DNA from: a virus
Length of the DNA stretch: 22,748 nucleotides
Direction: 5' to 3' (one strand)
IMG/VR virus record: IMGVR_UViG_3300035199_000360
Location: 1-22,748 of that record
Positions 6,801 to 22,687 of the stretch are shown here, in pieces (position 1 is the first letter of the stretch; every line of letters begins with the position of its first letter). The translations under genes were made by a program, and so were the position numbers. The notes beneath the pieces were generated by a model, which did no database searches, was not told the DNA's origin, and was given only the letters and a program-made list of their open reading frames with translations.

Positions 6801-8221
6801 ATGGCGATCTTGATAATGGCTTTGAATTGGGAGACGAATACATAGGCTTTTATTTTGGCTATGAAGAATCAACTGAGGATGGAGCGCTCCAGGGGGATAT
6901 AGTTTACGTCGTTGGAGATCCCGCTGGCGGATTCCCCTTTCCGATAGAAGGAGAAAGTATTACCGACGTCGCCGACGTGATTAGACCCTTGGCGACCAAG
7001 ATCAAGGTTGTCTCCGAGCAAGTAAAGAAGCAAACTTACTCTGAAGATCTCCCGGCTCACAAAGCACAACACAGCAAAGACGGCGACCGTGATAAAACAG
7101 GGTTAGTGACGACTCTTATAGATCTTGGAGATGTCCCGGAATATGGAACCGCATCAACATCAGGCGACTATCCGTTTGCTCTTGAAAAGTTTATCTCAAT
7201 TGAGGGGACAAAAATGTCATCCAGTAGCGCACTCTCCGTTATTATGGGCTCTAATGATAATGCATTGCTGATGTCAGAAGCATATCCGGGCCCGGCCGGA
7301 AATAGATTGAGACAGGTAAGAAACTCTGCCGGTATTGTGGTGGGCGTCGAAGGAGAGATGGGGGTGAGATATGGCCTACAATTTTACTTCTTACATGCCG
7401 GCTCAAAGATACCGATTGCGGATGTGTCAGTAAATGCATTAGATTTGCCAATTGCTGCAACTCCTCCGTTTGATGGAAGCTCCAAACTACTCCTGTGTCT
7501 GTTAAATATGATGAAATCACATCCTCAATATAGATTGATGACAAGCTATATTTTTCCCATGAAAAAGATTACGTCTACTCTCGCAGTATATAATGATATG
7601 GGTTTCTTATCTGCCATTGGAGAAGTGACAGTTGGCCGCGGCGACTGGGACAGATATGTGCCCATGGGCGATGGGGTATTTAGTTTCAACGGACCTAAAT
7701 CTGACACAGAAGGCGACTGGATCAATAGTGATATTAAGGGCGTACGCTCAAAACCCGGAAGCATAGCCTTCATAAGTGAGGACGAATCAGAAATCGAAGT
7801 GGAAGATCCTTATTGGGGCGACGGGGGAATTCTCCGTCCGGACGGCGACGAACCATACTGGCTTAAGATTAAAACTTTGAATCAGGGTAAAAGTTTCGTC
7901 GGAGGCAATGAGGGCTGGGTGCACCACAAAAACAGACAGCCTGGCTGGTTTGGAGGCATCGGCATAATGGAATGGGACTCTTGGGATAGGGTCTTATTAA
8001 GAAATTCCGTTGCGCGCATTAAGAGGATGTTTAAGGGCTATTATAATTCTCGTGATTGGCAACCGGGAGATATAGATAAATTCCCGGCCGGCGCCGTTTT
8101 CATTAAGAACCTAAAGAACAGAATGATGCCCAACCCTGCTATGGGAATTGTACCATGGTGGAAGAGGAACAGAGTCCGCTCCACTCCCTTTAACGATAAA
8201 GGTGCTTTGTGTGACAAATAA
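881..8221 (+). CDS. Giant uncharacterised phage structural protein (2446 aa)
   Basis: Function unknown; its place between a spike-like gene and gp25/gp6 suggests a virion protein at or near the baseplate. ATG at 881 follows a good AGGGG site. Residues 11-23 (DMDSDGLIDVCDD) match a calcium-binding loop of EF-hand/thrombospondin type-3 form, followed by CPSKC (32-36) and Cys62. About residues 685-760 hold a Cys/Pro-rich block (KFPGAELISAL, FDCPMPPLFNPS, GLPFCRD), then a hydrophobic segment around 772-800. Residues about 1293-1355 are a Ser/Asp/Glu-rich linker, and a second hydrophobic stretch lies at 1434-1448. A helical block near 1716-1753 contains LDRAGKTGLMGVIEAAIR and STHFLKGMPTFSRI. The C-terminus is basic (PWWKRNRVR). 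I recall this block order from unnamed proteins of marine phages. There is no recognised enzyme motif and no coiled-coil pattern typical of a tape measure. The frame is intact over 7.3 kb. Confidence 0.75.
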   Translation: MAESKFLKWQDMDSDGLIDVCDDLIMEKPLPCPSKCIPNPVAITPNWKKEPSLAPWINKKTCYYEIVKETHYTTTVPEELLEGDEVDEGKVREALNARALEFVPEVIETLLMETNKADSVTNINAVSADLQFHKYDLGVRKANRLKLLFRVPFDTIDPLEEAEDDGPIPEDEKPGWVSVEYSAADLSTKLITVRRGLNMMGRYVKVYRAIDGGNVKFLEDDRLFNLENYGDPCLFTPNGSILAKMQNELESFMNDRNLQIPGIGNNSSFGATLASPFASITKDNITRIKFESKDYKLKQIVFWTDGCGEKAFYLNKKLAPLLRSENWSDITAVGYISQLYKMDAALTARKPPEWQDFIIEYTYPKIYATTNPGDISPWNKTSSCIQDALDNELKELGQDIFDEVLNIGDVIAYQFRNGLCRYNMEELRDMEMDYGIADTINPGSKKKHSMMAMAKMQAFKELAESDQVFAALCARILGDSLGWKNVTQQMDDMYEYGLERIKVCGLFDLGLDAIKCLLGGLTLEQALSSMLKAALAAMNIENFGDLFIGLPAGKQAELDALVKKNFEKGNLFRPDSEMQQYSDALAAPGTEYKGDGESIEDTPLTSLGSGTLGTGMKLTKPWEDPVVVSEDHNKRSNMDQWSDSSSARRSLSDQIASGRASDDNLDPTLVMDLYIQGLLEVYQDNYLELLDELNKFPGAELISALIALFDCPMPPLFNPSIADFMKSFGLPFCRDMREIRIPRMWDPSEWYPDFCDFMKWLWDQFKIAVKQAVFNILILILVKICQILGDAICKALETVGNIAAAMPALLAGNQQIRNIIRDSICGPDATDEMIDNTMIDLFAKLGPGAAALANQESVIKFVEDLSSSTTRRELAEAFEGRPSQEFLEVSRQLIEYEYPEFKAGLGNPDQLTSLFRNTGAMMPAQARQDLKDFLNELPDDDFFPANPTLCLSPKKQEDFAALRCELLAGQHRTSTGQCEDSFRDLIDEMKGNVTDLTAMMSGAPGGPGGDGAFEDFVMQNMPKLFSEPGCDDGLLPDMPEATKTVASSALGNDFEMLKIDYSKDMLGNGGLFATNSDWGFMNMILSDTKGNPLTAHHRLGHNRNNYVDFASNLINGGEASTGFFAFMQGNSKFNDQRGQFPSYVGEWLMRQLLCAGGVTDDLDEADMFDNGETYNLFPIQSPGGWAKDLKNGESDVIDGRTSFSYNAGNTWDPGGAWSVTWEDLDFNQGWGVNVDLMQIPDFGYNTPISVDWDGEKIVIEEKGRKKYPDMILNYQDNAAGLREGCNRGRNKNSSSGDEGSFSFSSGEDMDSSWSYGFEILYFSGDMVDDSSFDSSGEESEPVELPGPEGEYDLTKDMSPEEKAEYEAAVRSSNPDAITNVQDGVKRNRADDNVRIKIVEKMNTSANVESPLSEMMAEDMDKSDGFDLPTWIEQVPIVGWVLQAVVNIFTKPFSSLIRPASAIGAPNDDGETIVLNERYEFLAVDNGLDGIDLSQYPEFLKCFTSHTAHSPQVVMLSELAGIDKESALTSVNSFMDKFFKDWAKEIGTNQNGWLYGAKFDYLLPSDTDYVASYGSKYDTSYPTPRMYDTISITETDTDGDTSTRPVRNRDMIMGQSRDQYMNEVNGTPESTRVYYLNPGNYGGSYVNPPIHIKPLQFGGWMGLVQVMFPELSPCKPQRTDLVNFGEIQQKIDSRISKIPEDPRLKQGPDCALEVPYNRILDRAGKTGLMGVIEAAIRIFASTHFLKGMPTFSRIQPKFPENFSNIYSQYIVEIMEERFKEAQHPFWEMFNLFSDQEFWYAFLEQSVQFYAWRLDNGEIENPSASVLNALRRLNDYQERYDFPYGEDLIDAKQMKDAHWLQTLKGYRFDKNLEGVVETEEDAKLVLAELVAEQLTIMGDRLVSNLRAQGYIPTVYDLDYWIFQHQCAGSEIKIAGPKFIEEPVGLPTPDNPDPAGAGDEWPGPYYTAGGEFRVAADGDLDNGFELGDEYIGFYFGYEESTEDGALQGDIVYVVGDPAGGFPFPIEGESITDVADVIRPLATKIKVVSEQVKKQTYSEDLPAHKAQHSKDGDRDKTGLVTTLIDLGDVPEYGTASTSGDYPFALEKFISIEGTKMSSSSALSVIMGSNDNALLMSEAYPGPAGNRLRQVRNSAGIVVGVEGEMGVRYGLQFYFLHAGSKIPIADVSVNALDLPIAATPPFDGSSKLLLCLLNMMKSHPQYRLMTSYIFPMKKITSTLAVYNDMGFLSAIGEVTVGRGDWDRYVPMGDGVFSFNGPKSDTEGDWINSDIKGVRSKPGSIAFISEDESEIEVEDPYWGDGGILRPDGDEPYWLKIKTLNQGKSFVGGNEGWVHHKNRQPGWFGGIGIMEWDSWDRVLLRNSVARIKRMFKGYYNSRDWQPGDIDKFPAGAVFIKNLKNRMMPNPAMGIVPWWKRNRVRSTPFNDKGALCDK
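3099..3120 (+). repeat. Perfect 9-bp inverted repeat (hairpin) inside the 2446-aa gene
   Basis: GGATCCCAC (3099-3107) and GTGGGATCC (3112-3120) are exact reverse complements separated by a GAAT loop, so the DNA or mRNA could form a 9-bp stem with six G-C pairs. It contains two GGATCC sites and lies about 55 bases before the codons of the hydrophobic segment. It is coding sequence (IPRMWDPSE) and has no T run after it, so it is not a terminator. Confidence 0.6.
3182..3290 (+). other. Hydrophobic segment of the 2446-aa protein
   Basis: Codons 768-803 encode AVKQAVFNILILILVKICQI and then a further Leu/Ile/Ala-rich helix with two cysteines and few charges. The FNILILILV core is about 9 residues of uninterrupted hydrophobicity, followed by AICKALETVGNIAAAMPALLAG. 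It could be a membrane-inserting helix or a buried helix of a multimer. Confidence 0.55.
4757..4945 (+). other. Acidic serine-rich low-complexity linker of the 2446-aa protein
   Basis: Codons about 1293-1355 encode runs such as SSSGDEGSFSFSSGEDMDSS and SSFDSSGEESEPVELPGPEG, dominated by Ser, Asp, Glu and Gly. Such composition usually marks a flexible, exposed linker; here it separates the Cys/Pro-rich N-terminal half from the second hydrophobic stretch and C-terminal half. Confidence 0.6.
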
Positions 8222-8257: not shown

Positions 8258-8626
8258 ATGGCTTCATTTAGCGTAGCACTACCAATTTCCAGAGATAGCG
8301 ATGACGGATTTACCATGTTGAAGAGCTTTAGAAAGCTTATTAAACAAAATTTAAAAATGCTTTTATTGACGGCTCCTGGCGAGAGAGTGATGGAGCCTGA
8401 ATTTGGAGTCGGAATGAGGAACTATCTATTTGAAAACTTCACTTCGTCGACGTATAGCAAAATAGAAACAAATATCAGAAAACAAGCATCCATATACATG
8501 CCAAACATCAACATACAGGAAGTTCAATTCTCAGAGGGCGCCATAGATCAGAATAGAGTAAATTTAAGAATTATATTCTCAGTGCCCGCCATAGGAATAA
8601 CCGAAATGTTGGAGCTAACTACTTAA
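8258..8626 (+). CDS. 25: Baseplate wedge protein, gp25/gpW (TssE-like) family
   Basis: At 122 residues the protein is close to T4 gp25 (132) and P2 gpW (115). The family signature is clear: LLLTAPGERVMEPEFGVG at about residues 36-53, then MRNYLFEN, with a helix around MLKSFRKLIKQNLKM before it and amphipathic strands after it (INIQEVQFSEG, NRVNLRIIFSVP). In contractile injection machines this protein joins gp6 and gp7 equivalents in the inner baseplate and touches the first sheath ring, so it helps start sheath assembly. The gp6-like gene follows 15 bases downstream, the same partnership seen across contractile systems. The old 'lysozyme' label of the family is not a supported activity. The gene has its own likely promoter and ribosome site. 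The symbol is by family homology. Confidence 0.92.
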   Translation: MASFSVALPISRDSDDGFTMLKSFRKLIKQNLKMLLLTAPGERVMEPEFGVGMRNYLFENFTSSTYSKIETNIRKQASIYMPNINIQEVQFSEGAIDQNRVNLRIIFSVPAIGITEMLELTT

Positions 8627-8641: not shown

Positions 8642-10438
8642 ATGTCAGATCAACAAAAAAAAGTACTCCCCATAAACTATACGAATAGGGAGTTTGAGAG
8701 CATCAGGGGAGACTTGATGCAACTGGCGGAAAGGTTTTACCCGGATTCATTCCAAGACTTTAGCGAAGCTTCTTTCGGCTCGATTATGATAGATTCGGTA
8801 GCGTATGTCGCCGATCAGCTTTCGTTTTATTTAGATTATAACGTTAATGAGTCCTTCCTTGATACGGCATATCAATTTGATAATGTACTGCGCCATGGCC
8901 GAATTTTAGGATACAAATCTCAAGGGCGCCCTTCGACATATGGTTCGGTTGCCTTATACGTGGTTGTGCCGGCTAGCCAGACTGCTCTTGGTCCCGATAG
9001 CGCATATATCCCTTTATTGAAAAGAGGATCAAGATTTACATCGACTAACGGCCTCAATTATGTTTTAACCGAAAATATCGATTTTGCAAATTCTACCAAC
9101 CCGGTTGTGGTTGCGCGCATGGATCCAACCACTGGCGCCCCCACTCACTTTGCCATTAAGAGTTACGGAACTGTTGTTTCGGGCTATTTTAGTCAAGAAA
9201 CAGTATCCACTGGCCCATATGAGCGATTTAAGACCTTAAGGCTTTCAAGCCCGAACATCTCTGAAATAATTTCGGTATTTGATTCAAATGGTAACGAGTA
9301 TTATGAAGTAGATTATTTGGCTCAAGACATGGTTTATAAAGAATTGTCAAACATAAACTATAAGAATGACAATGTACCATCTATTTTAAAGCCTTATCTG
9401 GTTTCACGTAAATTTGTAGTTGAAAGGACCAGAAACGACGTGTTCCTACAATTTGGAAGCGGCGACAGTGCCGGCACAAATGTGGTAGCCGAACCACAAA
9501 ACGTAGCAATGGATGTATTCGGAAAAGATTACATATACAATACCACCTTTGATCCTACCCGGTTGATGCAAAATCAAACCTTTGGCATATCACCGGCAAA
9601 CACAACCTTAACGGTTACATTTAGAGTGACCAATCCGACTAACTCAAATTTATCAACTGGAGGTTTAACGGAGGTATCTAATGCTAGAATTGAATTTGCG
9701 GACAGGAATATACTAACAGAGTCCAAAATACGCGCCGTCGTTTCTTCCGTAGAAGTATATAACGAGGCGCCCATTGTTGGGAGCGTGAGTAACATCAACA
9801 CTGGCGAGCTTAAGCGAAGAATATTCGATACGTTTCCTACTCAAAACCGAGCAGTCACACAAGCAGACTACGAAAATGTTGCATATAGAATGCCGGCCAA
9901 ATACGGTTCTATAAAAAGAACCTCTGTACAAAGAGATCCAAGTTCTCAAAAAAGAAATTTAAATATGTACATTGTTTCCGAAGACGCGTTCGGAAAACTA
10001 ACAACTTCCAACGACACCATTAAAACTAATTTAAAAACATGGCTAAATCAGTATAGAATGATTAACGATACAATAGATATTTTGGATCCGTACATTATTA
10101 ATTTAGGAGTCGACTTTTTGGTTAAGACAGTAGTTGGGACTAACAAATACTCAGTCCTTGATGCTTGCGTAGACTCTTTGAAAGATTTATATAAGGTTGC
10201 ATTCTTTATTGGGGAGCCAATCTACATCTCAGACGTTTATAGTCGCCTTAAGGATGTTAATGGAGTATTAGATGTGGTCAAAGTTAAATTGGTCAATAAG
10301 ACGGGAACGAGCTATTCGGGATCGACGATCGATATAAATAAAAACTTATCTCCTGATGGTACTTATCTCGTCGTTCCTAAGAATGCAATTGTTGAAATTA
10401 AATATCCAGACACAGATATCAAGGGAAGAATTAGATAA
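8642..10438 (+). CDS. 6: Baseplate wedge protein, gp6/gpJ (Baseplate J-like) family
   Basis: The 598 residues compare with 660 in T4 gp6 and about 300 in P2 gpJ, so it is of the T4 type. The N-terminal region (about 10-60: INYTNREFESIRGDLMQLAE, FGSIMIDSVAYVADQLSFYL) carries the helical start typical of gp6, with LRHGRILGYKSQGRPS next. Residues about 397-430 (FPTQNRAVTQADYENVAYRM and AKYGSIKRTSVQRD) are the best signature of the Baseplate_J fold core. The C-terminal third has the expected strand/helix repeats and ends with NAIVEIKYPDTDIKGRIR. Gp6 dimers form the continuous inner ring of the baseplate and hold gp25 and gp7. The stop codon overlaps the next start by one base, so translation is probably coupled. 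The symbol is by family homology. Confidence 0.92.
   Translation: MSDQQKKVLPINYTNREFESIRGDLMQLAERFYPDSFQDFSEASFGSIMIDSVAYVADQLSFYLDYNVNESFLDTAYQFDNVLRHGRILGYKSQGRPSTYGSVALYVVVPASQTALGPDSAYIPLLKRGSRFTSTNGLNYVLTENIDFANSTNPVVVARMDPTTGAPTHFAIKSYGTVVSGYFSQETVSTGPYERFKTLRLSSPNISEIISVFDSNGNEYYEVDYLAQDMVYKELSNINYKNDNVPSILKPYLVSRKFVVERTRNDVFLQFGSGDSAGTNVVAEPQNVAMDVFGKDYIYNTTFDPTRLMQNQTFGISPANTTLTVTFRVTNPTNSNLSTGGLTEVSNARIEFADRNILTESKIRAVVSSVEVYNEAPIVGSVSNINTGELKRRIFDTFPTQNRAVTQADYENVAYRMPAKYGSIKRTSVQRDPSSQKRNLNMYIVSEDAFGKLTTSNDTIKTNLKTWLNQYRMINDTIDILDPYIINLGVDFLVKTVVGTNKYSVLDACVDSLKDLYKVAFFIGEPIYISDVYSRLKDVNGVLDVVKVKLVNKTGTSYSGSTIDINKNLSPDGTYLVVPKNAIVEIKYPDTDIKGRIR
10333..10340 (+). promoter_or_regulatory. 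Second exact TATAAATA octamer (weak late-promoter candidate)
   Basis: TATAAATA occurs inside the gp6-like gene, 97 bases before the start of the 522-aa gene. It fits the T4 late-promoter octamer but encodes part of IDINKN and is expected about once per strand by chance. Confidence 0.2.
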
Positions 10439-12006
10439 TGGGAATAAAAAGGTACAAAGCGAATGCAGACAATACCATCGTTAATGCATATCAGCCAAAT
10501 TTACGCACCCGCGGAACCGGCGCCAACTGTGGCGAGTCGGACGTATTGGAATGCTTTTCTATCTATGATCGCACGCTTCTTAGTGGTTCGAAAGGGGATG
10601 GCACTGTAGCGTCTTCCGAATTATCGCGTATTATTATTAACTTTCCAATTGCGGATATCAAAACAGATCGAACAAATGGTAAAATTCCGGCCTCCGGTAG
10701 CGTTAGCTTTTATCTAAGATTGTTCAATGCACAAACTTCGAAGACGGTCCCGCGCAATTTTAAATTAGTTGTTAATCCCATGTCTCAATCTTGGGAAGAA
10801 GGAAACGGAGTTGATCTAGAGACCTACAAAGATCAAACGAAGGGCGGCATCGGCTCAAATTGGATTTATGCATCCAGCGGAAGCAAGTGGCAATCTATAG
10901 ATGGAGATGATATAGTAGGAGGCTCCTACAAGACCGGCTCATCAGACCCTGCGTTCACTCAGTCATTCACCACCGGTCTTGAAGATTTGAAAGTTGATAT
11001 ATCCGATCTGGTGGAAAAATGGGTATCCGAGGACATTGAACGCTATGGGGTCGGTATTCGCCTTTCTTCGAGTTATGAAGCCTACTTTTCTAGTTCTTTG
11101 GGCGAGAATGTATCTAGCGGGAGTGTGCTCGACAATTTAGACGGCGCCAAAACTTCGTATTACACCAAGAGATTCTTTGCTCGAGGCAGTCAATATTTTT
11201 TCAAGCGCCCAACAATCGAGGCCCGCTGGAATTCAGTAACTCGCGATGACCGGGGAGACTTTTATTATAGTAGTTCTCTCGCACCGGCCGACGATAACTT
11301 GAATGTGTTGTATTTATACAACTATGTTCGCGGCCGCCTGGTCAACATACCTTCAATTGGCACCGACAACATTTACGTAACCTTGTATTCTGGCTCTTCT
11401 GCTCCCACTGGCTCAAAGCTTGTCCTCTACGATGGATATACCAATGTTACCGGTGGACATGTTTCAACTGGCATCTACTCTGCATCTATAGCGATTACGG
11501 CCGCTACAACGCCCCTTACTGACATTTTTGACGTGTGGCACGATGATAGTGGCACTCAATTTTTTACAAGCTCTGTTAAGCCCAAGACTCTGATGGCGCA
11601 TGTTAATACACGCGAGCCGACTTATTACATGAACATTACCAACATGAGGGATCGTTATCGCTCCGATGAAACGGCAAGATTTAATTTATATGTCCGAGAA
11701 AAGAATTGGAAACCCACGATATACACTGTTGCTTCCGAGCGCGTAGAGACAATTCCAGTGAACAGCGCCTCATATCGAGTATATCGCACGTATGACGGTC
11801 TCGAAGCCATACCTTATGGAACCGGTAGTGACTTCTGTACAGGTCTATCATATGATATTTCAGGCAATTATTTTGATTTTGATATGAACTTGTTGGATCC
11901 TGGATATGCGTACGCCCTCAAATTCGCCTTCTATGATCCTGAGTTAAAATCCTGGACAGAACAAAACGAAACCTTTAAGTTTAGAGTAGAGAGTTATGAG
12001 TATTAA
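10438..12006 (+). CDS. Baseplate-associated protein with DNRLRE-like beta domain (522 aa)
   Basis: ATG at 10438 shares its A with the upstream TAA, and AAGGGAAG lies 9 bases before it. The N-terminal ~275 residues follow the pattern of DNRLRE-type beta-sandwich domains: SRIIINFPIADI (about 63-74), SVSFYLRLFNA, then NPMSQSWEEGNGVD (about 113-126), a Gly/Ser loop with a conserved Trp, and LKVDISDLVEKWVSE (about 183-197) before YGVGIRLS. Members of that family are mostly carbohydrate-associated surface proteins. Residues about 285-400 read as an Ig-like beta region (NIYVTLYSG, KLVLYDGY), and the last ~110 residues (SYRVYRTYDGLEAIPYG, DFDMNLLDPGYAYALKFAFY) form another compact beta domain. Its place after gp6 is where T4 has gp7 and gp8, but I see no sequence tie to either. 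It probably belongs to the outer baseplate or the base of a fibre; glycan binding is inference. Confidence 0.65.
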   Translation: MGIKRYKANADNTIVNAYQPNLRTRGTGANCGESDVLECFSIYDRTLLSGSKGDGTVASSELSRIIINFPIADIKTDRTNGKIPASGSVSFYLRLFNAQTSKTVPRNFKLVVNPMSQSWEEGNGVDLETYKDQTKGGIGSNWIYASSGSKWQSIDGDDIVGGSYKTGSSDPAFTQSFTTGLEDLKVDISDLVEKWVSEDIERYGVGIRLSSSYEAYFSSSLGENVSSGSVLDNLDGAKTSYYTKRFFARGSQYFFKRPTIEARWNSVTRDDRGDFYYSSSLAPADDNLNVLYLYNYVRGRLVNIPSIGTDNIYVTLYSGSSAPTGSKLVLYDGYTNVTGGHVSTGIYSASIAITAATTPLTDIFDVWHDDSGTQFFTSSVKPKTLMAHVNTREPTYYMNITNMRDRYRSDETARFNLYVREKNWKPTIYTVASERVETIPVNSASYRVYRTYDGLEAIPYGTGSDFCTGLSYDISGNYFDFDMNLLDPGYAYALKFAFYDPELKSWTEQNETFKFRVESYEY

Positions 12007-15000
12007 AAAGCTCTTCGGAGCCTCTGATAAAGAAAAAAATTATCTATCAAATACCGACACTAAAGATGCGATCAATGAAGAGGTCGAGTCCACTAGAAAT
12101 TTAAAACAGCTCTCCATTCGCGACGATCAAAATATTCCGCACATTGATTATTCAAATCCTGCGAACTTCGCTAGATTTGGATCCGCTTACCTCTACTATA
12201 AATCTGCTATAGAGAGGATTTTGGATTACTATCCCTATGACGGATCCGGTGCAGAAATCCATCAGTTCTATAACGAAAGCCTGAATATAGAAAAATACAT
12301 TTTAGATAACCTTTATCCTCGCGCCCACGGGTATATCACCGTCAACGTTGATGGATATGGTACTTCGGAACCTACAAGGGTCGATGGTTACGGCGCGCCC
12401 GCAGCATCCTATCAAGAATACATTACTTTCTACGGGGGCCCCAATACTGGCTCTGGAGGGGACACAATTCAGCAGTTAATGCCGGATCCCACAGACAGTA
12501 AGTTCCAATATGCCAATATATATGATGAGGATATATATCAAACTGAGGGCCTCCCCTCAGATTATGGATCCGGAACAAGAACGTCCAACCTTCGATCGAA
12601 CTTTGATGATGGAGTTACGGTTGAGTTTTGGTTAAAAACTGGGTCACTGGGTGACGACTTTTCTGAGGGAATTCTTTCCGACAAACAAGTTGTTTTTGAT
12701 CTGTGGAACAATGAAGACACCGCTAGCGCTGATTATGGGCGCATAAGGGTTGAACTAACGAGTTCTGTGTCGTGCGATGCAAACGAAACCCCATTTTTCC
12801 TTTCGGTTCGATCGGGCTCCGACGGCATAAATACAGTCGCTTTAGGCCAGAATTTGGATAGCGCCCAGCTAACTGATTGGAATCATTATGCTATTACCAT
12901 AAAGAACTCAGGCAGCAATTTAATATCTAAATTGTATATTAATGGAGGTCTCAATCACGAGAGAACCGATACCAGTGATGCTTTGGGAGAGCTTAAGTCA
13001 AAGAACATGACCGGTCGCATCGGAGCCCTCTTAACCGCCCCTGCCGGCACCGCCGCCACGGCCGGCGCCGGAAAACTCTCTGGGTCTATGGATGAGTTCC
13101 GCTTTTGGAAAGTCGCACGTAACGGCCAACAGATCGGCCGCAATTGGTTCACGCAAGTCCGCGGCGGTGTCAACACAGATATCGCAAACACCACATTAGG
13201 ACTATATTATAAGTTCAACGAGGGCATTACTGACGACACAAACATAGATCAAGTTGTATTAGACTACGGTGGTAGAATATGCAATGGTCTTTGGGCAGGA
13301 TATGGAAGCAACTCTAGAAACACAGGCTCAGCCATTTTGGAGGCCTCAGCATCCATTAAAGAATACAAAGATCCAATTATACGATCTCCTCATTATGCGG
13401 TAACCGATCTTAAAACCGGATTATTGGCCAGCGGATCATTCCACGATGCTAATACTAATTCTTCTTTCTTAAGTTTGGTTCCCGGCTGGATTTTAGACGA
13501 GCAAGACAGAGAAGAATTAAGTGACCTAAGCAATATCGCACACATTGCCGGCGCCTATTTTGATAAGCTGTATTTGCAAATTTCAGAACTTCCAAAATTG
13601 AGACAAATGAATTATGTTAGCGGTGCTTATAAGCCGTTCACTTTTGCTGAGCACTTGCCCCAGTCTCTTGGTCTTTATACTCCCGATCTTTTTGTCGATG
13701 CAAGTGTCATGGAGAGATTCGCCAACCGAACAGACACCGAGCTATTTGAGGGAAGCTTAGAAGAGGTTAAAAACTTAATTTATATTAATCTCTATAACAA
13801 CTTAACTAATATTTTTAAATCAAAAGGCACCGAAAAGGCAATTAAAAATGTTTTGAGATGCTTTAACATTGACGATAAATTATTAAGAGTGAGCGTAAAC
13901 TCAAACAATGCGGAGTATGTCCTCAAGAACAATCTACAACAAACCTTAATTAATAAAAATTGCTTGAACCTAAACGAGCAACAAAACATAGGAGGAGTTG
14001 TTTATCAGTCCTCCGACGGAGCCTCGTTCACCACCCAGGAGCGCGCCCATACACGCGGATATATTTCTGGATCCAACGATCACGAAGAACTCGGCCTAGG
14101 CTTTACGATGGAAACCAATGTAATATTTCCACATTATATGAAAAACAACGACAAGATAGCACGTGATTTTAACACAGTGTCTTTATTCGGGGCTGTTATG
14201 GTGGATACCGGTAGCACGAACAGTAAGACCGGTAAAGATACGACCACGTTGGCATACGATAAAGCCAATTTTCAAGTGCTTGCCGTTAGAGATTCTCAAT
14301 TTTCTAAAAATATACATTTTAAACTAACCTCTTCGTTGTCTCCCGGATTCGGAACTGAACTTACAAGCAGTACATATCTCAATGTTTATGACAATCAACT
14401 GTGGAACTTATCGGTCCGCCTGAAGCCTAATAAATATCCCTACGCCGGCTTTGTAAGCGGCGCCGCGATCACGGATGTCGCGACCACCTACGAGCTGATC
14501 TTTAAAGGAATTAATACAGAAAGCACCAACATAAACCAAAGCTTTAGAGTAACTGCGCCTGTCAGTAACGCCGTCGGCCGAGAATTTCTTAAAGCAGCTA
14601 AAAGAGCTTACGTCGGCGCCCAGAAAACAAATATAACAGGCAACTTAGTTTACCCCTCTGACGTTCTTATCTCTTCTACTAAATATTGGGCCCGCCATAT
14701 CGGCGATGACGATCTTCTGCAGCATACACTGGATCCAGAAAATATCGGTATTTCCGGCTCACTTCAAAATATATCGCCTTTTTCGACCACGCCACGAGAC
14801 GAATTCACAGACGATATTCTCAACAGTGATACTTTGGCCTTAAATTGGAACTTTATAGGACTTACGGGGTCTACAACGTCTCCCGGAGTGTTCACAACAG
14901 AAGACTATAGTTCGGGCTCACTTGAAGAAATCGCTACCCAGGGGTGGGTAGGTAAAGTCGCAGGCTATCGACACCCAGCCCGATCGGAAGGGTTTAATGT

Positions 15001-18000
15001 CTCAAACATCGATCGTAAGCATTTTAACTCCTATCGACTGATAAGCCCAGAACAAGTTGTATCATCTGATATGGTACAAATTTTTTCTGATAACGATGAG
15101 TTATTTCCTAATTTTAGACGAGAAGAGATTTTACCTAACTACATTTATACAATTGAAAAGAGCCTTTATAACGCCATTTCAGAAGACATGCTAGATTTCT
15201 TCGCCGGCGTTTTGGACTTTAATAACATAATTGGCCACCCCGTTAACCGATATCGAGCCCGGTATAAAGAGATGGAAAAGCTGAGAGAAATCTTCTTCAG
15301 AAGAGTCAATTCAGTCTCTGCAGTAGAAAAGTACATTAAATATTATAAATGGTTTGATGATACTCTTACTGAAATAATCTCACAACTAGTACCAGCTTCT
15401 TCTGAGTTCGTCAACGATGTTTTGAATGTTGTTGAGTCTCATGTGCTCGAGAGGAACAAATATAAATCAAAATTTCCAACATTGGATTTTATACGAGATG
15501 ACTTAGATAGTGTAATCATGGGTGTGCACGAAAGAGAATATCCTTGGTATGCGGGATCTGCTCCGCCCCCGGAGTCGCCACGACCTACCGATCAGCGCGA
15601 GTGGTTTTGGAAGCGCAGAGCGATGCGCACAGCCACAGAGATCTCTGCTACTCTCCCGGATGGAACTGCCGCAACAATAATAAATCAACAACGAGAACAA
15701 TTTAAAGATACCATCTATGCCAGGCCTCACTTTAGCATGTCTCTGGCACAAGTATCAACGGTTGGTGGTCAGCGATATTTAATTCCTGATCTAGATCTAC
15801 AAAGATTTACAACCACATATGCCTTCAAAGTTTCTGATATAGAAATGATAAGAGATTCAAATGTGCACGTTGGAACCAACTACTCCCCTCAAAAGAATAT
15901 TGAATTTTCGGCCGCCACATTTCGAAGTTTGAGCAAAATCGAGAGAGACAATAACACTTATATACCACTTAATGTCTTGTTGGCTACCTCCAAAGATATG
16001 GTTGAAATCCCGGAATTTAGAGACCCATCAGAACCAAAAGACAAGATTAAGAAACAAACGCGAGACTTTAAAGTTCTGTACGGCCCAGATTTTGGTGATG
16101 GGTTAACTTATCTCAATACAACGTCGCGTTATGCATTTCCTTTTAACATCGTTAGTTCATCTGTGAGGACAGGATTCAACACCGAAGTTGTAAGCAATTT
16201 GACTTCTGGTATTGAAATCACAAACCGGCACCATGAAGGCTGGGGCGAAGGAAACAATGTCGGCCTTCAAGGGCCCTTCACTCGCGCAAAGGTTGGTGGC
16301 CATCAATCACGGCATGTTCCACTAAACAAGGGCACTGACAATTGGATGACGCGCCCAGAAAAAGATAAAATTCTAATTGGCACCTGCGGCGGCTCATGGC
16401 CACAGGGCGCAGTAGGACTTACAGATCCTTTCTATCCCTACCCGGAAGCCAACGATATTGGCATGCCGCCCTACCCGTTAACAGCTGCTCAAGGAGCAAT
16501 ATATTACCGCGATCAGATCGCCCAGCGCCCGTTTAACCTCAAGAATATTCAGATAGTCACTGGCTCAAATGAACTTGGAAACTACACCTATAATTACGAG
16601 GTGGTTAGCTCAGTTGGTGCTCACTCTAATCCGCGTCAATTCATCGAAAGTCAACCTACTCTACCGACTGGTGCCTTCCAGCAGCGAGCGACAGCCTCCA
16701 CACAGATTAGAGGATTATGGGATATACATCGAACATCAGAAGAGCATTTTCAATGGATTTCAGAATATTCGACGGAATACTTAGATAACACCGCAAACAA
16801 GTCAATTATTGTGGGGAGATATAGAACCGCCGGCGGCATCGAACAAGAAACTCTGGGGTATAAAGGTTTCCGCGCTAGCGAATACTCTGTATACAATGCT
16901 GTCCCATACCGAAATCTCACAGTGCTTAAGCCAATGCAGCCCCCCTCTGGGGTCGTCGGTACCGATACACTATTCAGCACCCTGGGAAGTTCAACGCCAT
17001 CTGATATCAAGGTAATAGATATCCACAACCAGCCGTACGGCCTTAATGCCCATCAGGCGCGCCATACCGCACGATTTGGTAGAGACTCCCTGATAGTCAC
17101 AGGCACCAGCATGGCGACCAACGGACCCGGAGCATCTTATGATCAGTCTCCAGGCTGGCACAAAATTAACAGAAACAACAAGCAAATAGTGGCCAACTGT
17201 GGCGAAGAAACTATTCACTCAAACTCCAACACAGGCATTGCCAACTTGTCGGGGCTGTCTATGGGAACGGCCGTCAACTCTGGCAACACACAATATGGCA
17301 AGCTCTATCATTCGTCTTCCTTTGTGGATGGCGCCGGCACTCTTACCGCCACCACTTGGACGGTCGGATTATGGATTAAACCAAATGCCAATATTGGAAA
17401 CTACAGTAGTTTAGTGTCCCTAGGGGATAATGGAGCCTCCTCGAATAGAGATATTGCGCTAGATTTTGGTATCAAAGTAAACGCGAGTTATGATCGCTTG
17501 AGTCTGTGGTCCAAGTCTGATGCCGGAGACAAAGGGAAGTTTTATGGAGATATAGAATTAGTTCAAGGATCCTGGCAACATGTCGCATTCACGTGGAACG
17601 GCGCCCAAGGCACAACTCCAACCTTCTATGTGAACGGAGTGGCCGACACTACTAATACTGATCAGGCCGCCGGCGGTGCTAACGTGTCAGTAAACAGTGT
17701 GGGATCAGGGCAATCATATATTGGAGGAACCAATAGAGATTCATCGACTTCCCACAAGAGTCTTCCACAAATAGATATCGATGAAATTGTAATTTATGAT
17801 GAGGTTCTGACGGCCGCAGACATAAGCACTCTCTATGCCAACGGCGGAGCCCTTAATCTAACAAGCTCAATTGCACCTAAAACCGGATCTTTGGTTACGT
17901 GGATTCGTTGTGGCGATGTGGCCGGCGATCCGACAGAGGGTTCGGAGGTGGATGTAGCCGTTGCCGGCTATGCGGGATATTTCCACGATCAGATGGGAAA

Positions 18001-21000
18001 CAATGACTACATCATTAAAGGCTCTAACGGAAATGCGACCTACATGGCCATGGTGTCGCAGTCGGCCGCCGGCGGGCTTCCAATTGCGTATATAACCGCT
18101 AGCGTAACAAACCAGTTAATATGCGATGAGCAGCTTTACGATAACTGGTATATTCAACATCAAATCCCGAGATCTGATCGACAATACCAGTGGATTAATC
18201 AATCCATAGTAGATGGACAAAACATCCGATATTCAGGATTCCAACCAACGTATGCCCGTGACATAGGGCCATTTCTGTCTCAGTCTTCTGGGTTAACATA
18301 TTTTTATGATTTTGTAAGCTCGAGCGACGTTCGCGCAGACACGGGATCTCCCTATGCTGGAGGGCACCAGCCAACAAATCGACTTAATATTCTCACAGTA
18401 GATGCAATAACAGGCGCCTCGTCAGACATTGCCACCAATACGTTAGGCTTCCCGAATACGTCCGATGTTAGTCAGTATCTCAATACCACGCTAAATCCAA
18501 GCTTGAACGAGTCTGATTATTTAAATCTTCTTCTATGCCGCCGCGGCGCCAAATACGGATGGACATGGCAACAATTACGCCTGGGTGATCATCCGGTATT
18601 AGTAAATGAGAGAAAATATAACACCATTACAGTAATGACGGCCGCCCTACAACAATTAATGGATGGTTATTTGTTGCCCCCAGTCTCCTTGAAAGGTCGC
18701 CCAGCAATCGCTAACTTTGATGCCCCAACTGTTGAAAATCGCGGTAGAAACAATGTCACCCTAAAGGCAACCCACAATAACGAGCACATATTCTTTAATG
18801 AGTATCAAATGGATAATCTAACCAAAATGAAGAGATCGGTGACACCGTTTGACCAATTGATGCTATCGCTGTCTCATCCCCTGTGGATGACCAACTATAT
18901 CATATATCGCCAAAATGTATTCCCATCGATGAAAAATGAATTCTCAAGCTGGTCTACGGGATATGATTTTACAACGTCTTATAAAAACGATGTGTGGAAT
19001 ACCGACTATAATCAACGACGTTATTTGGGCGGATTATATAATGCAACTAACTCTAGTGGGATAGTAGTGTCTCAGAGTATCTGGCCCCTTGATCCTCCGG
19101 GCGCATTCTCCACATCGAATTCTGGAATTTACTCGCCCGACGGATTTAAGTCTTTCGCGGCCCGAACCAACGTACCCCAAATTGACAAGACGATGAATGG
19201 AAATGGTGTTGAAGAACAATTGCGAGGGAACGGATATGCCGGCGAACTTCAAAACTCTAAGTTCTCGTTTATGGTTGGCACTGAAACAATTGGCTCAAGC
19301 CAAGATGTTTTAGATCGTCGTCTTCGGAGCCTAGTACCCGGCGCCCTAGGGTGGGCCAAGCATCTGATCGGCACCGCACAATCTGTAACTCGCCTCGGTA
19401 GCCAAGATATTCCAGAAACAGGGAGCCTTACCGGCTCTTGGGATCCAAGTGAACAACTCACCGATGTTTATGCCGGCGAAGCCGATTGGGCTAGCGACAC
19501 TCCCAATAATGCCGGCCGACCTATTAAAAATTCAGAGCGCCCCGTGCCAGTATTTGAGGTTACCGGCTCTCAGCCGTGGTATGATACTTACAATGAATAC
19601 TGGCAAGACTTGAAATTGCTCGCTAAAGGTTATTCAGTCTTGCCTGAATATAGAATCAGCGAACACGTTGAGGATTATTTAGATTACGGGGTTGAAAATC
19701 TGGGTGTTATAGATACGTTTGAGTTCCCTGGCGTAGATCCCGAAGTAAACAGTACTCAAGGAGACTTCTACAAGACATATACCAATAGTGAATTTATGAA
19801 AGGATTTTTAAGAATCCCTCAACAGTCCTTCGCTAAAGCAGATCAGATTCGTTTAACCTGTGACGCCGCCATTTGTTGGCGCCCACAGCCATCATTTTAC
19901 CCAGCCCAGCGCGCCGTTGACATGGTAGCACAGTTCTCCAAATCATACGGAGACAAAATAGTTAGCTTCTTCAATGATACGGTGGCCTCTGGTTCCTCCT
20001 TGTATGAAGAAAATGGGGGAGCACTAAGACCGCTTTACGAAGCTCTCTATTCTCCTGGGATTCTTTTTAACAGCCTCAAGGCCGGTATAGCATGCAATTA
20101 TCCAGTAATTACTGATTCCACAATCGTTTCGGGATCCTGGTTTGGCTCGCGCTCGGTTAAAGTAGATAGCACGTGGCCCGGGCAGGACACACGCTCCACA
20201 GGCGCCCCAAGTACAAACAATTGGGCGATAGTTCCCAATAATGTTCAAAGTGCATTAAACCAGTTGCCACCGGCCGGCCGCAGTAAATATAAGGCCCAAG
20301 GTCTATATGCGGGAGTAGGAAGTCCTTTTTATAAACTCCCGTTCGAATCGATTGTTGAACCGGCCCGGTATCTAAACGGCGTCGATTTTTACGACATTAA
20401 CCCACACCCTTCGGCAACACTGATCACTCAGCATTATGCTTCGGCAAATGCGCCATATAAGGGAGTGAAGACATCTTTGGCTTCCAATGGTGACGATTTG
20501 GCTTATACCATGTTCGCGGAGAACTTTTTGGGAGAAATTCCAAATATGTTTTTAAAAGGTGGGACATTTAGTTCAATTAAATCATCTGTTATTCCATCTG
20601 ATTTAACGTTTAAGCCAATTCTACGTGATCGCAGTAGCAAGGGACAAGGATCCACTTCAGGAGGCGCCGGCGCCTATTTCATGAGAATTAAAATGGTACC
20701 CCCAAGCAATGGAAAAATTGATAAAACACACGAAGTAGATGCCCTCGGCCTCACGAAAAATACCCTCGGCGCCTGGGGCAAGTTTGGAGCACGCGTGTGG
20801 GATGATTCCGATACGCTTCCCGGGAACTATAAATTTGGAACAGCCGAATATGCGGTCCCTCAGTGGCCCATGCATAATCCAAACTTCAAGCGGACACAAA
20901 CGATGGCTAGCCGCCCGTCCTCGTACTCTCAAATTGCAGTTGCCGGCCGGCCCGCGGGAATCTATGCTAACAGAAATCAAGCATGCCAGAGTATTCCGGA

Positions 21001-22687
21001 TTCTTTTGTCGGGTTTAATCCTCTTTATACTCATCCAATGTCAGATGGAGAAGCTTGGATTGATTGCTGGTTCTACCCAAGCGCATCGGAAGGCGGCAAC
21101 TTGGAGGCATATGATCTTGAAAGAATTCTAGCTGAAATGGAAGTTCGTATGTGGAGATTTGATCCCGGATTTGTTACCGGATCCGCAGCCGCGGCCTCCG
21201 CCGGCGAAGATTCACCGGCACTCATCACTGCTAGCCTGGGTGAACCAAAATTCTATGATGGAAATCTAATCAACAAGGTCTCTATGCAAGCTAGCGCCTC
21301 TCTTAACTATTTGGGAATTGAGCGAGTCTTCAAATCTACCAGAGACAAAAGAGGCAACCTAGTATCTGAACAAAACGAAACCGCGGGAATGAGATTGATA
21401 ATTTCGCCAAAATTTGAAACCCCCACATTTAACTTTTCGGATCAAGGAATTAGACCAATTAGCGCCGAAGCCGGAACGTTAACGCTTCCGCTCTATGCGT
21501 CCCAGTCGGTCAACCGCGGTATTTGGCAGCAATTTGGCTGTTATCCTACCAAAGTGAGAGAATATCCTAAAGTCATCGTTGAGGGCCCCCGCCAAGGTGG
21601 AGCAACAGGTATCAACAACTGGCTTAAATATCACTATAGCGTTGTTAACGAACCATCGATTTACAACAACTATAATGCAGAAGAAGGGTATAGAGTCTCA
21701 AGACAAACAAAATCATTAGCTAAGCTGCTTGGTCTTGAAAAAGGCAATAATAGCATGAATTTGGGCGAATTGCGCGAGAAATTCACACTAAAAGAGGCCG
21801 TCGTAGCGATTCCCTATATTGTGGAAGAAATTCCAGTAAAAGATCAAGATCCTTGTGTCGAAAACACACGCATGCGAAAAAGATTTATAAACATTCCTCC
21901 CGCTCGCGTCAAGGCAGCCCTGAAAGAAAATCAAAACACAGCGCAGGGAGATTCCCTACAGTCCGCCGGTGTTTCCATTCGAAATCTGGCCGCCAGAATG
22001 GAAGATTTCGTTCTGCCCCCTCAGTTAGATTGGGTTCATAATTCAAAAATTCAACCTATTGTAATGTATATTTTCCCATTTGAATATGAATTAGATAAGG
22101 ATGACCTGTCTTATATCTATCAAAACCTTGCGCCCCGAGAATCAAAGAAAATCCGACTTAAGAGTACGTCGGTTGCACACAATCTATTGAGCACGGAACT
22201 TCTGAGATCTCAGAATATCATGACAACCGATCAGTTAAGGTGGATGGTATTCAAGGTTAAGCAACGCTCAACATCTAATTACTATGATCATGTGCCAAGC
22301 CAAGCCGGCGAAGCATCATCACAGTTGACAGAAATGCAAGATCAGATTGATAAAAATAAGCAACGCCAGAAACTTCAGGGCGACAACGCACCCAGCCGAG
22401 ATTTTAAAATTCAATATAACTGGCCATATGATTATATTTCTTTAATTGAATTGGCGCGCCTCGATGTGGAAGTACTGTATAATAATTCTCCAACCAGTAG
22501 GGATGCCGAACGTGTGAGGAGTGCCAAATATACAAAAGATCTAAATTCTAAAAATAATGCCAAAATAGGCTCGAATCGAATAAAGAAGAAAGGCCTAACG
22601 ATCGATCCGCCCCCTCTATCACCAAAGGGAGGCCGAAAAGTTGGCAAGAAAGGGGGAGGAAATAAAGGTGGGGGAGGCCAATACTAA
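11996..22687 (+). CDS. Giant modular baseplate/tail protein: gpI/gp7-like motif plus LamG modules (3563 aa)
   Basis: The start overlaps the upstream gene by 11 bases and has only a weak Shine-Dalgarno, so translational coupling is likely. Order of blocks: LamG module (about 204-370); helical region about 497-640 ending in NIFKSKGTEKAIKNVLRCF, which fits the KGT-helix motif of P2 gpI/T4 gp7; degenerate LamG-like region (about 685-915); long helical block about 1064-1162 (DMLDFFAGVLDFNNIIG, YIKYYKWFDDTLTEIISQ); QGPFTRAKVGGHQSRH (about 1425-1440); second LamG (about 1751-1952); YDNWYIQHQIPRSDRQYQW (about 2048-2066); GSQPWYDTYNEYWQDL and VLPEYRISEHV (about 2523-2558); YNWPYDYISLIELA near 3476; Lys/Gly tail. 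Several blocks match, from memory, unnamed giant proteins of marine phages. At over three times T4 gp7 (1032 aa), it would join wedge and display roles. No enzyme motif was seen. A separate fibre role is the main alternative. Confidence 0.7.
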   Translation: MSIKKLFGASDKEKNYLSNTDTKDAINEEVESTRNLKQLSIRDDQNIPHIDYSNPANFARFGSAYLYYKSAIERILDYYPYDGSGAEIHQFYNESLNIEKYILDNLYPRAHGYITVNVDGYGTSEPTRVDGYGAPAASYQEYITFYGGPNTGSGGDTIQQLMPDPTDSKFQYANIYDEDIYQTEGLPSDYGSGTRTSNLRSNFDDGVTVEFWLKTGSLGDDFSEGILSDKQVVFDLWNNEDTASADYGRIRVELTSSVSCDANETPFFLSVRSGSDGINTVALGQNLDSAQLTDWNHYAITIKNSGSNLISKLYINGGLNHERTDTSDALGELKSKNMTGRIGALLTAPAGTAATAGAGKLSGSMDEFRFWKVARNGQQIGRNWFTQVRGGVNTDIANTTLGLYYKFNEGITDDTNIDQVVLDYGGRICNGLWAGYGSNSRNTGSAILEASASIKEYKDPIIRSPHYAVTDLKTGLLASGSFHDANTNSSFLSLVPGWILDEQDREELSDLSNIAHIAGAYFDKLYLQISELPKLRQMNYVSGAYKPFTFAEHLPQSLGLYTPDLFVDASVMERFANRTDTELFEGSLEEVKNLIYINLYNNLTNIFKSKGTEKAIKNVLRCFNIDDKLLRVSVNSNNAEYVLKNNLQQTLINKNCLNLNEQQNIGGVVYQSSDGASFTTQERAHTRGYISGSNDHEELGLGFTMETNVIFPHYMKNNDKIARDFNTVSLFGAVMVDTGSTNSKTGKDTTTLAYDKANFQVLAVRDSQFSKNIHFKLTSSLSPGFGTELTSSTYLNVYDNQLWNLSVRLKPNKYPYAGFVSGAAITDVATTYELIFKGINTESTNINQSFRVTAPVSNAVGREFLKAAKRAYVGAQKTNITGNLVYPSDVLISSTKYWARHIGDDDLLQHTLDPENIGISGSLQNISPFSTTPRDEFTDDILNSDTLALNWNFIGLTGSTTSPGVFTTEDYSSGSLEEIATQGWVGKVAGYRHPARSEGFNVSNIDRKHFNSYRLISPEQVVSSDMVQIFSDNDELFPNFRREEILPNYIYTIEKSLYNAISEDMLDFFAGVLDFNNIIGHPVNRYRARYKEMEKLREIFFRRVNSVSAVEKYIKYYKWFDDTLTEIISQLVPASSEFVNDVLNVVESHVLERNKYKSKFPTLDFIRDDLDSVIMGVHEREYPWYAGSAPPPESPRPTDQREWFWKRRAMRTATEISATLPDGTAATIINQQREQFKDTIYARPHFSMSLAQVSTVGGQRYLIPDLDLQRFTTTYAFKVSDIEMIRDSNVHVGTNYSPQKNIEFSAATFRSLSKIERDNNTYIPLNVLLATSKDMVEIPEFRDPSEPKDKIKKQTRDFKVLYGPDFGDGLTYLNTTSRYAFPFNIVSSSVRTGFNTEVVSNLTSGIEITNRHHEGWGEGNNVGLQGPFTRAKVGGHQSRHVPLNKGTDNWMTRPEKDKILIGTCGGSWPQGAVGLTDPFYPYPEANDIGMPPYPLTAAQGAIYYRDQIAQRPFNLKNIQIVTGSNELGNYTYNYEVVSSVGAHSNPRQFIESQPTLPTGAFQQRATASTQIRGLWDIHRTSEEHFQWISEYSTEYLDNTANKSIIVGRYRTAGGIEQETLGYKGFRASEYSVYNAVPYRNLTVLKPMQPPSGVVGTDTLFSTLGSSTPSDIKVIDIHNQPYGLNAHQARHTARFGRDSLIVTGTSMATNGPGASYDQSPGWHKINRNNKQIVANCGEETIHSNSNTGIANLSGLSMGTAVNSGNTQYGKLYHSSSFVDGAGTLTATTWTVGLWIKPNANIGNYSSLVSLGDNGASSNRDIALDFGIKVNASYDRLSLWSKSDAGDKGKFYGDIELVQGSWQHVAFTWNGAQGTTPTFYVNGVADTTNTDQAAGGANVSVNSVGSGQSYIGGTNRDSSTSHKSLPQIDIDEIVIYDEVLTAADISTLYANGGALNLTSSIAPKTGSLVTWIRCGDVAGDPTEGSEVDVAVAGYAGYFHDQMGNNDYIIKGSNGNATYMAMVSQSAAGGLPIAYITASVTNQLICDEQLYDNWYIQHQIPRSDRQYQWINQSIVDGQNIRYSGFQPTYARDIGPFLSQSSGLTYFYDFVSSSDVRADTGSPYAGGHQPTNRLNILTVDAITGASSDIATNTLGFPNTSDVSQYLNTTLNPSLNESDYLNLLLCRRGAKYGWTWQQLRLGDHPVLVNERKYNTITVMTAALQQLMDGYLLPPVSLKGRPAIANFDAPTVENRGRNNVTLKATHNNEHIFFNEYQMDNLTKMKRSVTPFDQLMLSLSHPLWMTNYIIYRQNVFPSMKNEFSSWSTGYDFTTSYKNDVWNTDYNQRRYLGGLYNATNSSGIVVSQSIWPLDPPGAFSTSNSGIYSPDGFKSFAARTNVPQIDKTMNGNGVEEQLRGNGYAGELQNSKFSFMVGTETIGSSQDVLDRRLRSLVPGALGWAKHLIGTAQSVTRLGSQDIPETGSLTGSWDPSEQLTDVYAGEADWASDTPNNAGRPIKNSERPVPVFEVTGSQPWYDTYNEYWQDLKLLAKGYSVLPEYRISEHVEDYLDYGVENLGVIDTFEFPGVDPEVNSTQGDFYKTYTNSEFMKGFLRIPQQSFAKADQIRLTCDAAICWRPQPSFYPAQRAVDMVAQFSKSYGDKIVSFFNDTVASGSSLYEENGGALRPLYEALYSPGILFNSLKAGIACNYPVITDSTIVSGSWFGSRSVKVDSTWPGQDTRSTGAPSTNNWAIVPNNVQSALNQLPPAGRSKYKAQGLYAGVGSPFYKLPFESIVEPARYLNGVDFYDINPHPSATLITQHYASANAPYKGVKTSLASNGDDLAYTMFAENFLGEIPNMFLKGGTFSSIKSSVIPSDLTFKPILRDRSSKGQGSTSGGAGAYFMRIKMVPPSNGKIDKTHEVDALGLTKNTLGAWGKFGARVWDDSDTLPGNYKFGTAEYAVPQWPMHNPNFKRTQTMASRPSSYSQIAVAGRPAGIYANRNQACQSIPDSFVGFNPLYTHPMSDGEAWIDCWFYPSASEGGNLEAYDLERILAEMEVRMWRFDPGFVTGSAAAASAGEDSPALITASLGEPKFYDGNLINKVSMQASASLNYLGIERVFKSTRDKRGNLVSEQNETAGMRLIISPKFETPTFNFSDQGIRPISAEAGTLTLPLYASQSVNRGIWQQFGCYPTKVREYPKVIVEGPRQGGATGINNWLKYHYSVVNEPSIYNNYNAEEGYRVSRQTKSLAKLLGLEKGNNSMNLGELREKFTLKEAVVAIPYIVEEIPVKDQDPCVENTRMRKRFINIPPARVKAALKENQNTAQGDSLQSAGVSIRNLAARMEDFVLPPQLDWVHNSKIQPIVMYIFPFEYELDKDDLSYIYQNLAPRESKKIRLKSTSVAHNLLSTELLRSQNIMTTDQLRWMVFKVKQRSTSNYYDHVPSQAGEASSQLTEMQDQIDKNKQRQKLQGDNAPSRDFKIQYNWPYDYISLIELARLDVEVLYNNSPTSRDAERVRSAKYTKDLNSKNNAKIGSNRIKKKGLTIDPPPLSPKGGRKVGKKGGGNKGGGGQY
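12605..13100 (+). other. LamG/concanavalin-like module 1 of the 3563-aa protein
   Basis: The order of conserved strands is that of LamG-like jelly rolls: DGVTVEFWLKTG, a strand with VVFDLWN, LTDWNHYAITIKNSGSN, KLYINGGLNHE, GRIGALL and finally SGSMDEFRFWKVARNGQQIG. These modules in phage tails usually bind glycans or serve as spacers. It ends in FRFWKVARN followed by LGLYYKFNEG, as is common after such modules. Confidence 0.8.
13486..13870 (+). other. gpI/gp7-like helical region of the 3563-aa protein
   Basis: About residues 497-624 are helical (GWILDEQDREELSDLSNI, AYFDKLYLQISELPKLRQ) and end in LIYINLYNNLTNIFKSKGTE followed by KAIKNVLRCFNI. P2 gpI-type proteins, the simple-phage counterpart of T4 gp7, carry a helix-KGT-helix motif of this form, and gpI genes follow gpJ (gp6) genes. 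Position and motif together suggest the wedge part of the giant, but the match is short. Confidence 0.5.
14050..14745 (+). other. Degenerate LamG-like region of the 3563-aa protein
   Basis: About residues 685-915 show a beta pattern with pieces reminiscent of LamG: LGFTMETNVIFP, ANFQVLAVRDS, DNQLWNLSVRLKPN, TYELIFKGIN, AKRAYVGAQKTNITG and STKYWARHI followed by LLQHTLDPENIG. The strand order and the VGA-x-G and W-R features fit a diverged jelly roll, but it is much weaker than the other two. Confidence 0.4.
17246..17850 (+). other. LamG/concanavalin-like module 2 of the 3563-aa protein
   Basis: Clear LamG signatures in order: TATTWTVGLWIKPN, SSLVSLGDNG, DRLSLWSKSD, GSWQHVAFTWNG, TPTFYVNGVADT, SYIGGTNR and IDEIVIYDEVLTAADISTLY. 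The module lies between KINRNNKQIVANC and DNWYIQHQIPRSD blocks, which belong, as I recall, to one conserved region in related phage proteins. Confidence 0.85.
22673..22677 (+). promoter_or_regulatory. Shine-Dalgarno site inside the Gly-rich tail codons
   Basis: GGAGG, within a longer G run from 22670, lies 9 bases before ATG at 22687. The same bases encode the glycines of GGGGQY at the end of the 3563-aa protein. Confidence 0.6.

Follow-up and report, generated by a model that had tools for sequence, protein, structure and literature searches.

A 3563-aa putative gp7/gpI-type baseplate wedge subunit with fixed and variable lectin-fold domains in a lineage of marine contractile-tailed phages

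In a 22.7-kb IMG/VR virus fragment, referred to here as the window, the second gene after gp6 encodes a 3563-aa protein. We consider it fairly likely that this giant is a gp7/gpI-type baseplate wedge subunit enlarged by added domains, one of which, LamG-C, is a candidate recognition module acting beside separate adhesins. This reading is based on the gene's position behind gp25 and gp6, seen in two cultured phages and in every relative that shows the locus, on a match to gpI that is in register at a KGT motif and scores above shuffled controls, and on a sheath gene in 9 of 9 records tested together with lectin-fold domains that divide into fixed and variable ones. It is also based on AlgoCIS, where the gp7-like part of Alg12 is exposed, contacts the tail fibres and has been termed a hotspot of re-engineering (PMC8894135).

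Results

A giant gene behind gp25 and gp6

The giant open reading frame starts with ATG and comprises 3563 open codons with no internal stop (Table 1). Its coordinates, its place after gp25, gp6 and one further gene, and its size of more than three times that of T4 gp7 (1032 aa; the giant is 3.5 times larger) were all as the sequence-only reading had stated. The PHROG matched by the window gp6 protein includes the gp6 of cyanophage S-PM2. The 522-aa gene that intervenes between gp6 and the giant overlaps the giant ORF by 11 bases and matched no Pfam or PHROG family. Every IMG/VR relative of sufficient length has the same gene order and a giant ORF, so the ORF is not a chance one. A frameshift or an assembly fusion of several genes was considered as the origin of the giant and rejected, because the long ORF recurs in independent contigs.

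Table 1. Features of the window, with positions in nucleotides and residues numbered within the giant
Feature	Position	Strand	Details
gp25-like wedge / sheath-initiator protein	8258..8626	+	122 aa; Pfam PF04965 9.3e-15; PHROG 261 5.3e-21
gp6-like wedge protein	8642..10438	+	598 aa; PHROG 219 baseplate wedge subunit 1.8e-16
Beta-rich-looking gene between gp6 and giant	10438..12006	+	522 aa; conserved in lineage
Giant, putative gp7/gpI-type wedge subunit	11996..22687	+	3563 aa
LamG-A	12578..13315	+	residues 195-440; Pfam PF13385 Laminin_G_3 1.2e-10 (segment alone)
gp7/gpI-like helical core, first half	13403..13915	+	residues 470-640; hhalign to gpI
KGT helix KSKGTEKAIKNVLRCFNI	13817..13870	+	residues 608-625; in register with P2 gpI KGT
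ConA-B, ConA/LamG-like jelly roll inside core	13943..14785	+	residues about 650-930; predicted structure
Helical core, second half	15113..15475	+	residues 1040-1160; 54-73% identical in lineage
LamG-C, variable module	17336..17860	+	residues 1781-1955; Pfam best stretch 1781-1944
Gly-rich C-terminal tail, last residue Tyr	22625..22684	+	residues 3544-3563; similar endings in relatives

The giant ends in ...KKGGGNKGGGGQY, and Gly-rich, Tyr-terminated ends were also observed in the giants of loci L095, L097, L102 and L107. In some relatives a second tail-region protein of 240-286 aa (L097 16639-17499, L098 16781-17614 and L106 2163-2891) has the same type of ending (...GTSGGGY, ...TDGSGY, ...TAGGGSY), as if the giants and these proteins might share a C-terminal signal.

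Directly ahead of gp25, the window encodes a 2446-aa protein (881-8221) without a Pfam or PHROG family; its counterpart in the 203-kb relative G001 has 2232 aa, a similar N-terminus and the same place (L278 8045-14743). Directly upstream of the tail module of G001 there are also ~20 apparent sugar-nucleotide and glycosyltransferase genes, a judgement based on N-terminal sequences alone (L277 and L278 1-4100, about 42-64 kb). Two genes ahead of gp25, G001 encodes a 400-aa protein with a VanY D-Ala-D-Ala carboxypeptidase domain (L278 5824-7026), probably a tail-associated peptidoglycan enzyme.

The giant recurs in a lineage of contractile-tailed phages

Relatives of the window gp6 protein are encoded on 235 IMG/VR stretches, and relatives of the core of the giant on at least 471. 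The order gp6, 522-aa-type gene, giant was found wherever the locus of an IMG/VR relative was long enough. Complete giants in the relatives have 3195-3895 aa, and one more is still open at 4093 aa. The largest contigs of the lineage measure 187-203 kb, and the sheath gene shows that these are contractile-tailed phages; the lineage is an abundant group of marine phages of roughly 190-205 kb. Because most relatives are metagenomic fragments, genes missing from them are weak evidence. Core relatives were also observed in a WOR-3 MAG chromosome (L342, CP070664.1 586764-594947) and in short Maricaulis MAG contigs (L343, L344), where they represent either prophages or misbinned phages.

The cultured phages nearest to the window by their gp6 protein are Microcystis phage Mel-JY01 (32%) and the Flavobacterium phages immuto (30%). 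In both, and in the 484-kb uncultured phage LR756508, the place of the giant is taken by a protein of 1265-1400 aa with a KTKGT motif, and that of the 522-aa gene by genes encoding 369-420 aa. The KTKGT proteins are related to one another by tblastn; tblastn with both parts of the giant against cultured phages gave no match.

A KGT helix and a helical core of probable gp7/gpI type

The KGT-helix motif of the sequence-only reading was recovered as KSKGT at residues 608-612, in which K608, K610, G611 and T612 are invariant among 13 aligned giants. The Mel-JY01, immuto and LR756508 families have a homologous first half of the core, and in an alignment of the core across all families the D, P, FD, G, KGT, P and LxRxK positions are invariant. 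When a profile of residues 470-660 was compared with a profile of 11 gpI proteins, KGT was placed on KGT with a score of 28.4 (maximum of 30 column shuffles, 16.7); a wider, insert-free core scored 23.4 against a shuffled maximum of 19.6 (100 shuffles). Furthermore, the best match of a gpI HMM sits on the KGT in 69 of 77 members from seven subgroups, a test in which only the match position is telling because the bit scores overlap those of decoys. Over whole genomes the gpI HMM gave no match, in a search that had no positive control and was therefore uninformative.

Comparisons with T4 gp7 were less clear. As a single sequence it gave no significant match to the giant, and its family profile was in register at the KGT but reached 18.0, below the shuffled maximum of 21.9, and was thus not significant. 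T4 gp7 and its relatives have a comparable helix around residue 738 that carries KGI, KGV or KGT. The Pfam Tail_P2_I HMM matched the frame of the giant in 8 of 20 records (7 of the 17 IMG/VR relatives and LR756508), always below the curated cut-off, with best scores in the relatives of 11-13 bits against the required 20.6. PF23786 Baseplate_wedge matched four cyanophages; it matched neither the window lineage nor T4. No curated family cut-off was attained for gpI or gp7. A Pfam cut-off is a detection threshold and not a biological trait; because Tail_P2_I stays below it, the formal family label is withheld and the claim is held at gp7/gpI type. The sequence-only reading had named a separate gp7 homologue elsewhere in the genome as evidence against itself, and with Tail_P2_I no second gpI-like site was detected outside the frame of the giant in the 20 related records, most of which are fragments.

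AlphaFold2 modelled ConA-B as the only confident part of window residues 440-1180, and the insert-free immuto core reached a mean pLDDT of 50; a fold search of the PDB with this low-confidence model returned nothing significant. Sequence-profile searches of the PDB with A1, A2 and A4 gave LamG/pentraxin matches (A1) or chance matches only, and in a viral library the first matches outside the family, with weak E-values, include 204-222-aa proteins labelled 'tail protein'.

The gene thus lies next to gp25 and gp6, and its KGT helix and strand align in register with gpI over a short match of modest significance. These results lend consistent though weak support to gp7/gpI homology, and we judge the giant likely to be of gp7/gpI type. 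Of the wedge assignment made from the sequence alone, position and motif stood; the Tail_P2_I and T4 gp7 comparisons stayed short of their thresholds. The giant could instead be an adhesin or a tail protein resembling a fibre, whose gene just happens to lie behind the wedge genes; its KGT would then be a brief coincidental likeness to gpI, and the real gp7 would be encoded by a different, unrecognised gene. The shortness of the gpI match, the cut-offs that were not reached, the lack of a significant PDB match in the fold tests and the 522-aa gene that separates gp6 from the giant would all fit such a protein. We nevertheless regard it as improbable, as the KGT is invariant and in register across several diverged families, the 20 records hold no other gpI-like site, and giants of cultured cyanophages, one of them annotated as a baseplate wedge subunit, share both motif and position.

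Fixed and variable lectin-fold domains

Searched over the whole giant, Laminin_G_3 (PF13385) gave 1e-25 with its best stretch at residues 1781-1944, and both LamG-A and LamG-C exceeded the curated cut-off. The at least two LamG modules noted earlier were therefore confirmed, and structure prediction added a third, ConA-like domain. This domain, ConA-B, matched no Pfam family; it follows the KGT helix-strand, precedes the second half of the core and was predicted with a pLDDT mostly of 70-93 over most of its length. Foldseek related it to pentraxin (1.9e-5) and laminin LG (6.8e-5). An insert at the same site is present in the Mel-JY01 and LR756508 families and absent from the immuto family.

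Among the aligned giants, identity to the window was 52-65% for the first half of the core and 54-73% for the second, 50-61% for LamG-A, which is present in 13 of 13 giants, and 41-48% for ConA-B. The identity of LamG-C fell to 22-38%; of 12 relatives, 4 lack this module in its slot, two have it doubled and two apparently displaced, and one giant has an extra weak copy near the C-terminus. Judged from these alignments, LamG-C is a fast-diverging module with 0-2 copies at shifting sites. Because LamG-A and ConA-B are fixed, they probably have a structural or constant-ligand role; the rapid divergence of LamG-C, together with its gains, losses and moves, makes it the strongest candidate for a module on the wedge that recognises surfaces.

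All the LamG and ConA domains of a gp7-type wedge subunit might instead be structural links among the periphery of the wedge, adjacent tail proteins or fibres, and bind no host. We hold this to be a real possibility, though of less than even probability: LamG-A and ConA-B are conserved as much as the scaffold and the gp7-like part in AlgoCIS touches fibres (PMC8894135), but the low identity and the changing number and place of LamG-C are unlike a fixed structural contact.

Separate adhesins

It had been proposed from the sequence that the wedge carries surface-binding modules instead of using separate fibres. Three lectin-fold domains on a single protein, and the fact that no known fibre family was recognised among the tail-region proteins scanned, would suit a complete replacement of the tail fibres. 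However, the tail module of the relatives continues after the giant with large proteins (936-1680 aa) without an assigned family, in the relative G020 a 1655-aa protein distinct from the giant carries three LamG domains, and in immuto tail fibre and tail spike genes are annotated downstream. The replacement of separate fibres by wedge modules is thus not supported, and we regard it as highly improbable. gp8 was not found in the relatives, and gp9/10-N gave two weak matches there.

Discussion

A proposed model of an enlarged wedge

In our preferred reading, the giant is a putative gp7/gpI-type baseplate wedge subunit enlarged by added domains. Residues 470-640 and 1040-1160 would pack against gp6 in the manner of gp7/gpI, and the additional domains would project outward from the wedge, with LamG-A and ConA-B as its presumed constant parts. 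LamG-C would serve in surface recognition on the wedge alongside, and not demonstrably instead of, separate adhesins. A more far-reaching idea, which we put forward only tentatively and think rather unlikely, is that the wedge scaffold has a few defined slots for exchangeable lectin modules. Host recognition would then evolve as LamG modules are acquired, dropped or exchanged within a wedge subunit, close to the machinery that sets off sheath contraction. The division into fixed and variable modules offers a concrete, testable guess at the part that touches the host, and an abundant marine phage group would be tied to the gp7/gpI wedge lineage.

Comparison with known systems

The proposal that this baseplate design had not been described did not survive comparison with cultured cyanophages, in which giants lie directly after gp6: S-PM2 (YP_195115, 3048 aa), ACG-2014j (3516 aa), S-CREM1 (UYA57620, 5422 aa; region L353 17465-30537) and P-RSM6 (8573 aa; region L352 17021-30303). 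The S-CREM1 protein is annotated as baseplate wedge subunit, and the PHROG of that name, 2885, is a 4179-position profile. All four giants have a KGT motif, which is found near residue 197 or 712. For S-CREM1 and P-RSM6, this motif falls inside a PF23786 match that is above the cut-off by hmmscan and slightly below it in a whole-genome search. The same two exceed the Laminin_G_3 cut-off at about residues 2250-2450. Like the window giant, the cyanophage proteins have over 3000 aa, follow gp25-gp6 and carry the KGT helix. They differ in that all four contain a YHYH domain, which the window lineage lacks, and in that they adjoin gp6 with no 522-aa gene between. In the window lineage a lectin fold splits the core, and LamG sites are both fixed and variable. 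The window giant has no overall sequence similarity to the cyanophage giants and none to PHROG 4406, 2885 or 701. As far as sequence comparison can tell, it is the same kind of protein as the gp7-position giants of Kyanoviridae, but of a different family.

The domains themselves have also been published: Laminin G3 lectin domains occur in jumbo phages, on tail fibres as well as on further components of the virion, and YHYH domains are fused to tail or baseplate proteins (PMC7824862). The available part of that article describes domains of the same type on virion and tail proteins, and does not describe LamG in a gp7-type subunit or in variable slots. In the open-access literature we found no paper that combines LamG with a gp7-type wedge.

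P2 gpI and Pfam Tail_P2_I PF09684 (pyocin R2 Tri2 PA0619, 6u5b) share with the giant the gene order gp25-gp6-gpI and a KGT helix followed by a strand, but gpI has only 176 aa and no lectin folds. T4 gp7 likewise follows gp6; it lacks LamG, and is followed by gp8. Mel-JY01 WWT39511 (1336 aa) and immuto gp161 (1265 aa) have a homologous KxKGT core and likewise follow gp25, gp6 and a gene of intermediate size, although they have a third of the length of the giant and one further small gene precedes them. The insert after the KGT in Mel-JY01 looks like the ConA domain of the window, whereas immuto has no insert. These proteins form a graded series from the 176-aa gpI through immuto and Mel-JY01 with its ConA-like insert to the 3195-3895-aa giants with several lectin folds. 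In Klebsiella phage ST16-OXA48phi5.4 (L271 277-1110), the annotation makes gpI the beginning of a tail protein of 1008 aa, which may be a natural fusion of gpI with a fibre.

A gp7-position giant with a LamG module is therefore of a kind already present, unremarked, in the public genomes of cultured cyanophages, and the window giant, though instructive, is a variant and not a new machine. Attention is thereby drawn to the unremarked 3000-8500-aa wedge-position proteins of these cyanophages. What is new in the window lineage is the ConA domain that interrupts the wedge core behind the KGT strand, and the combination of a fixed LamG-A and core with a variable LamG-C.
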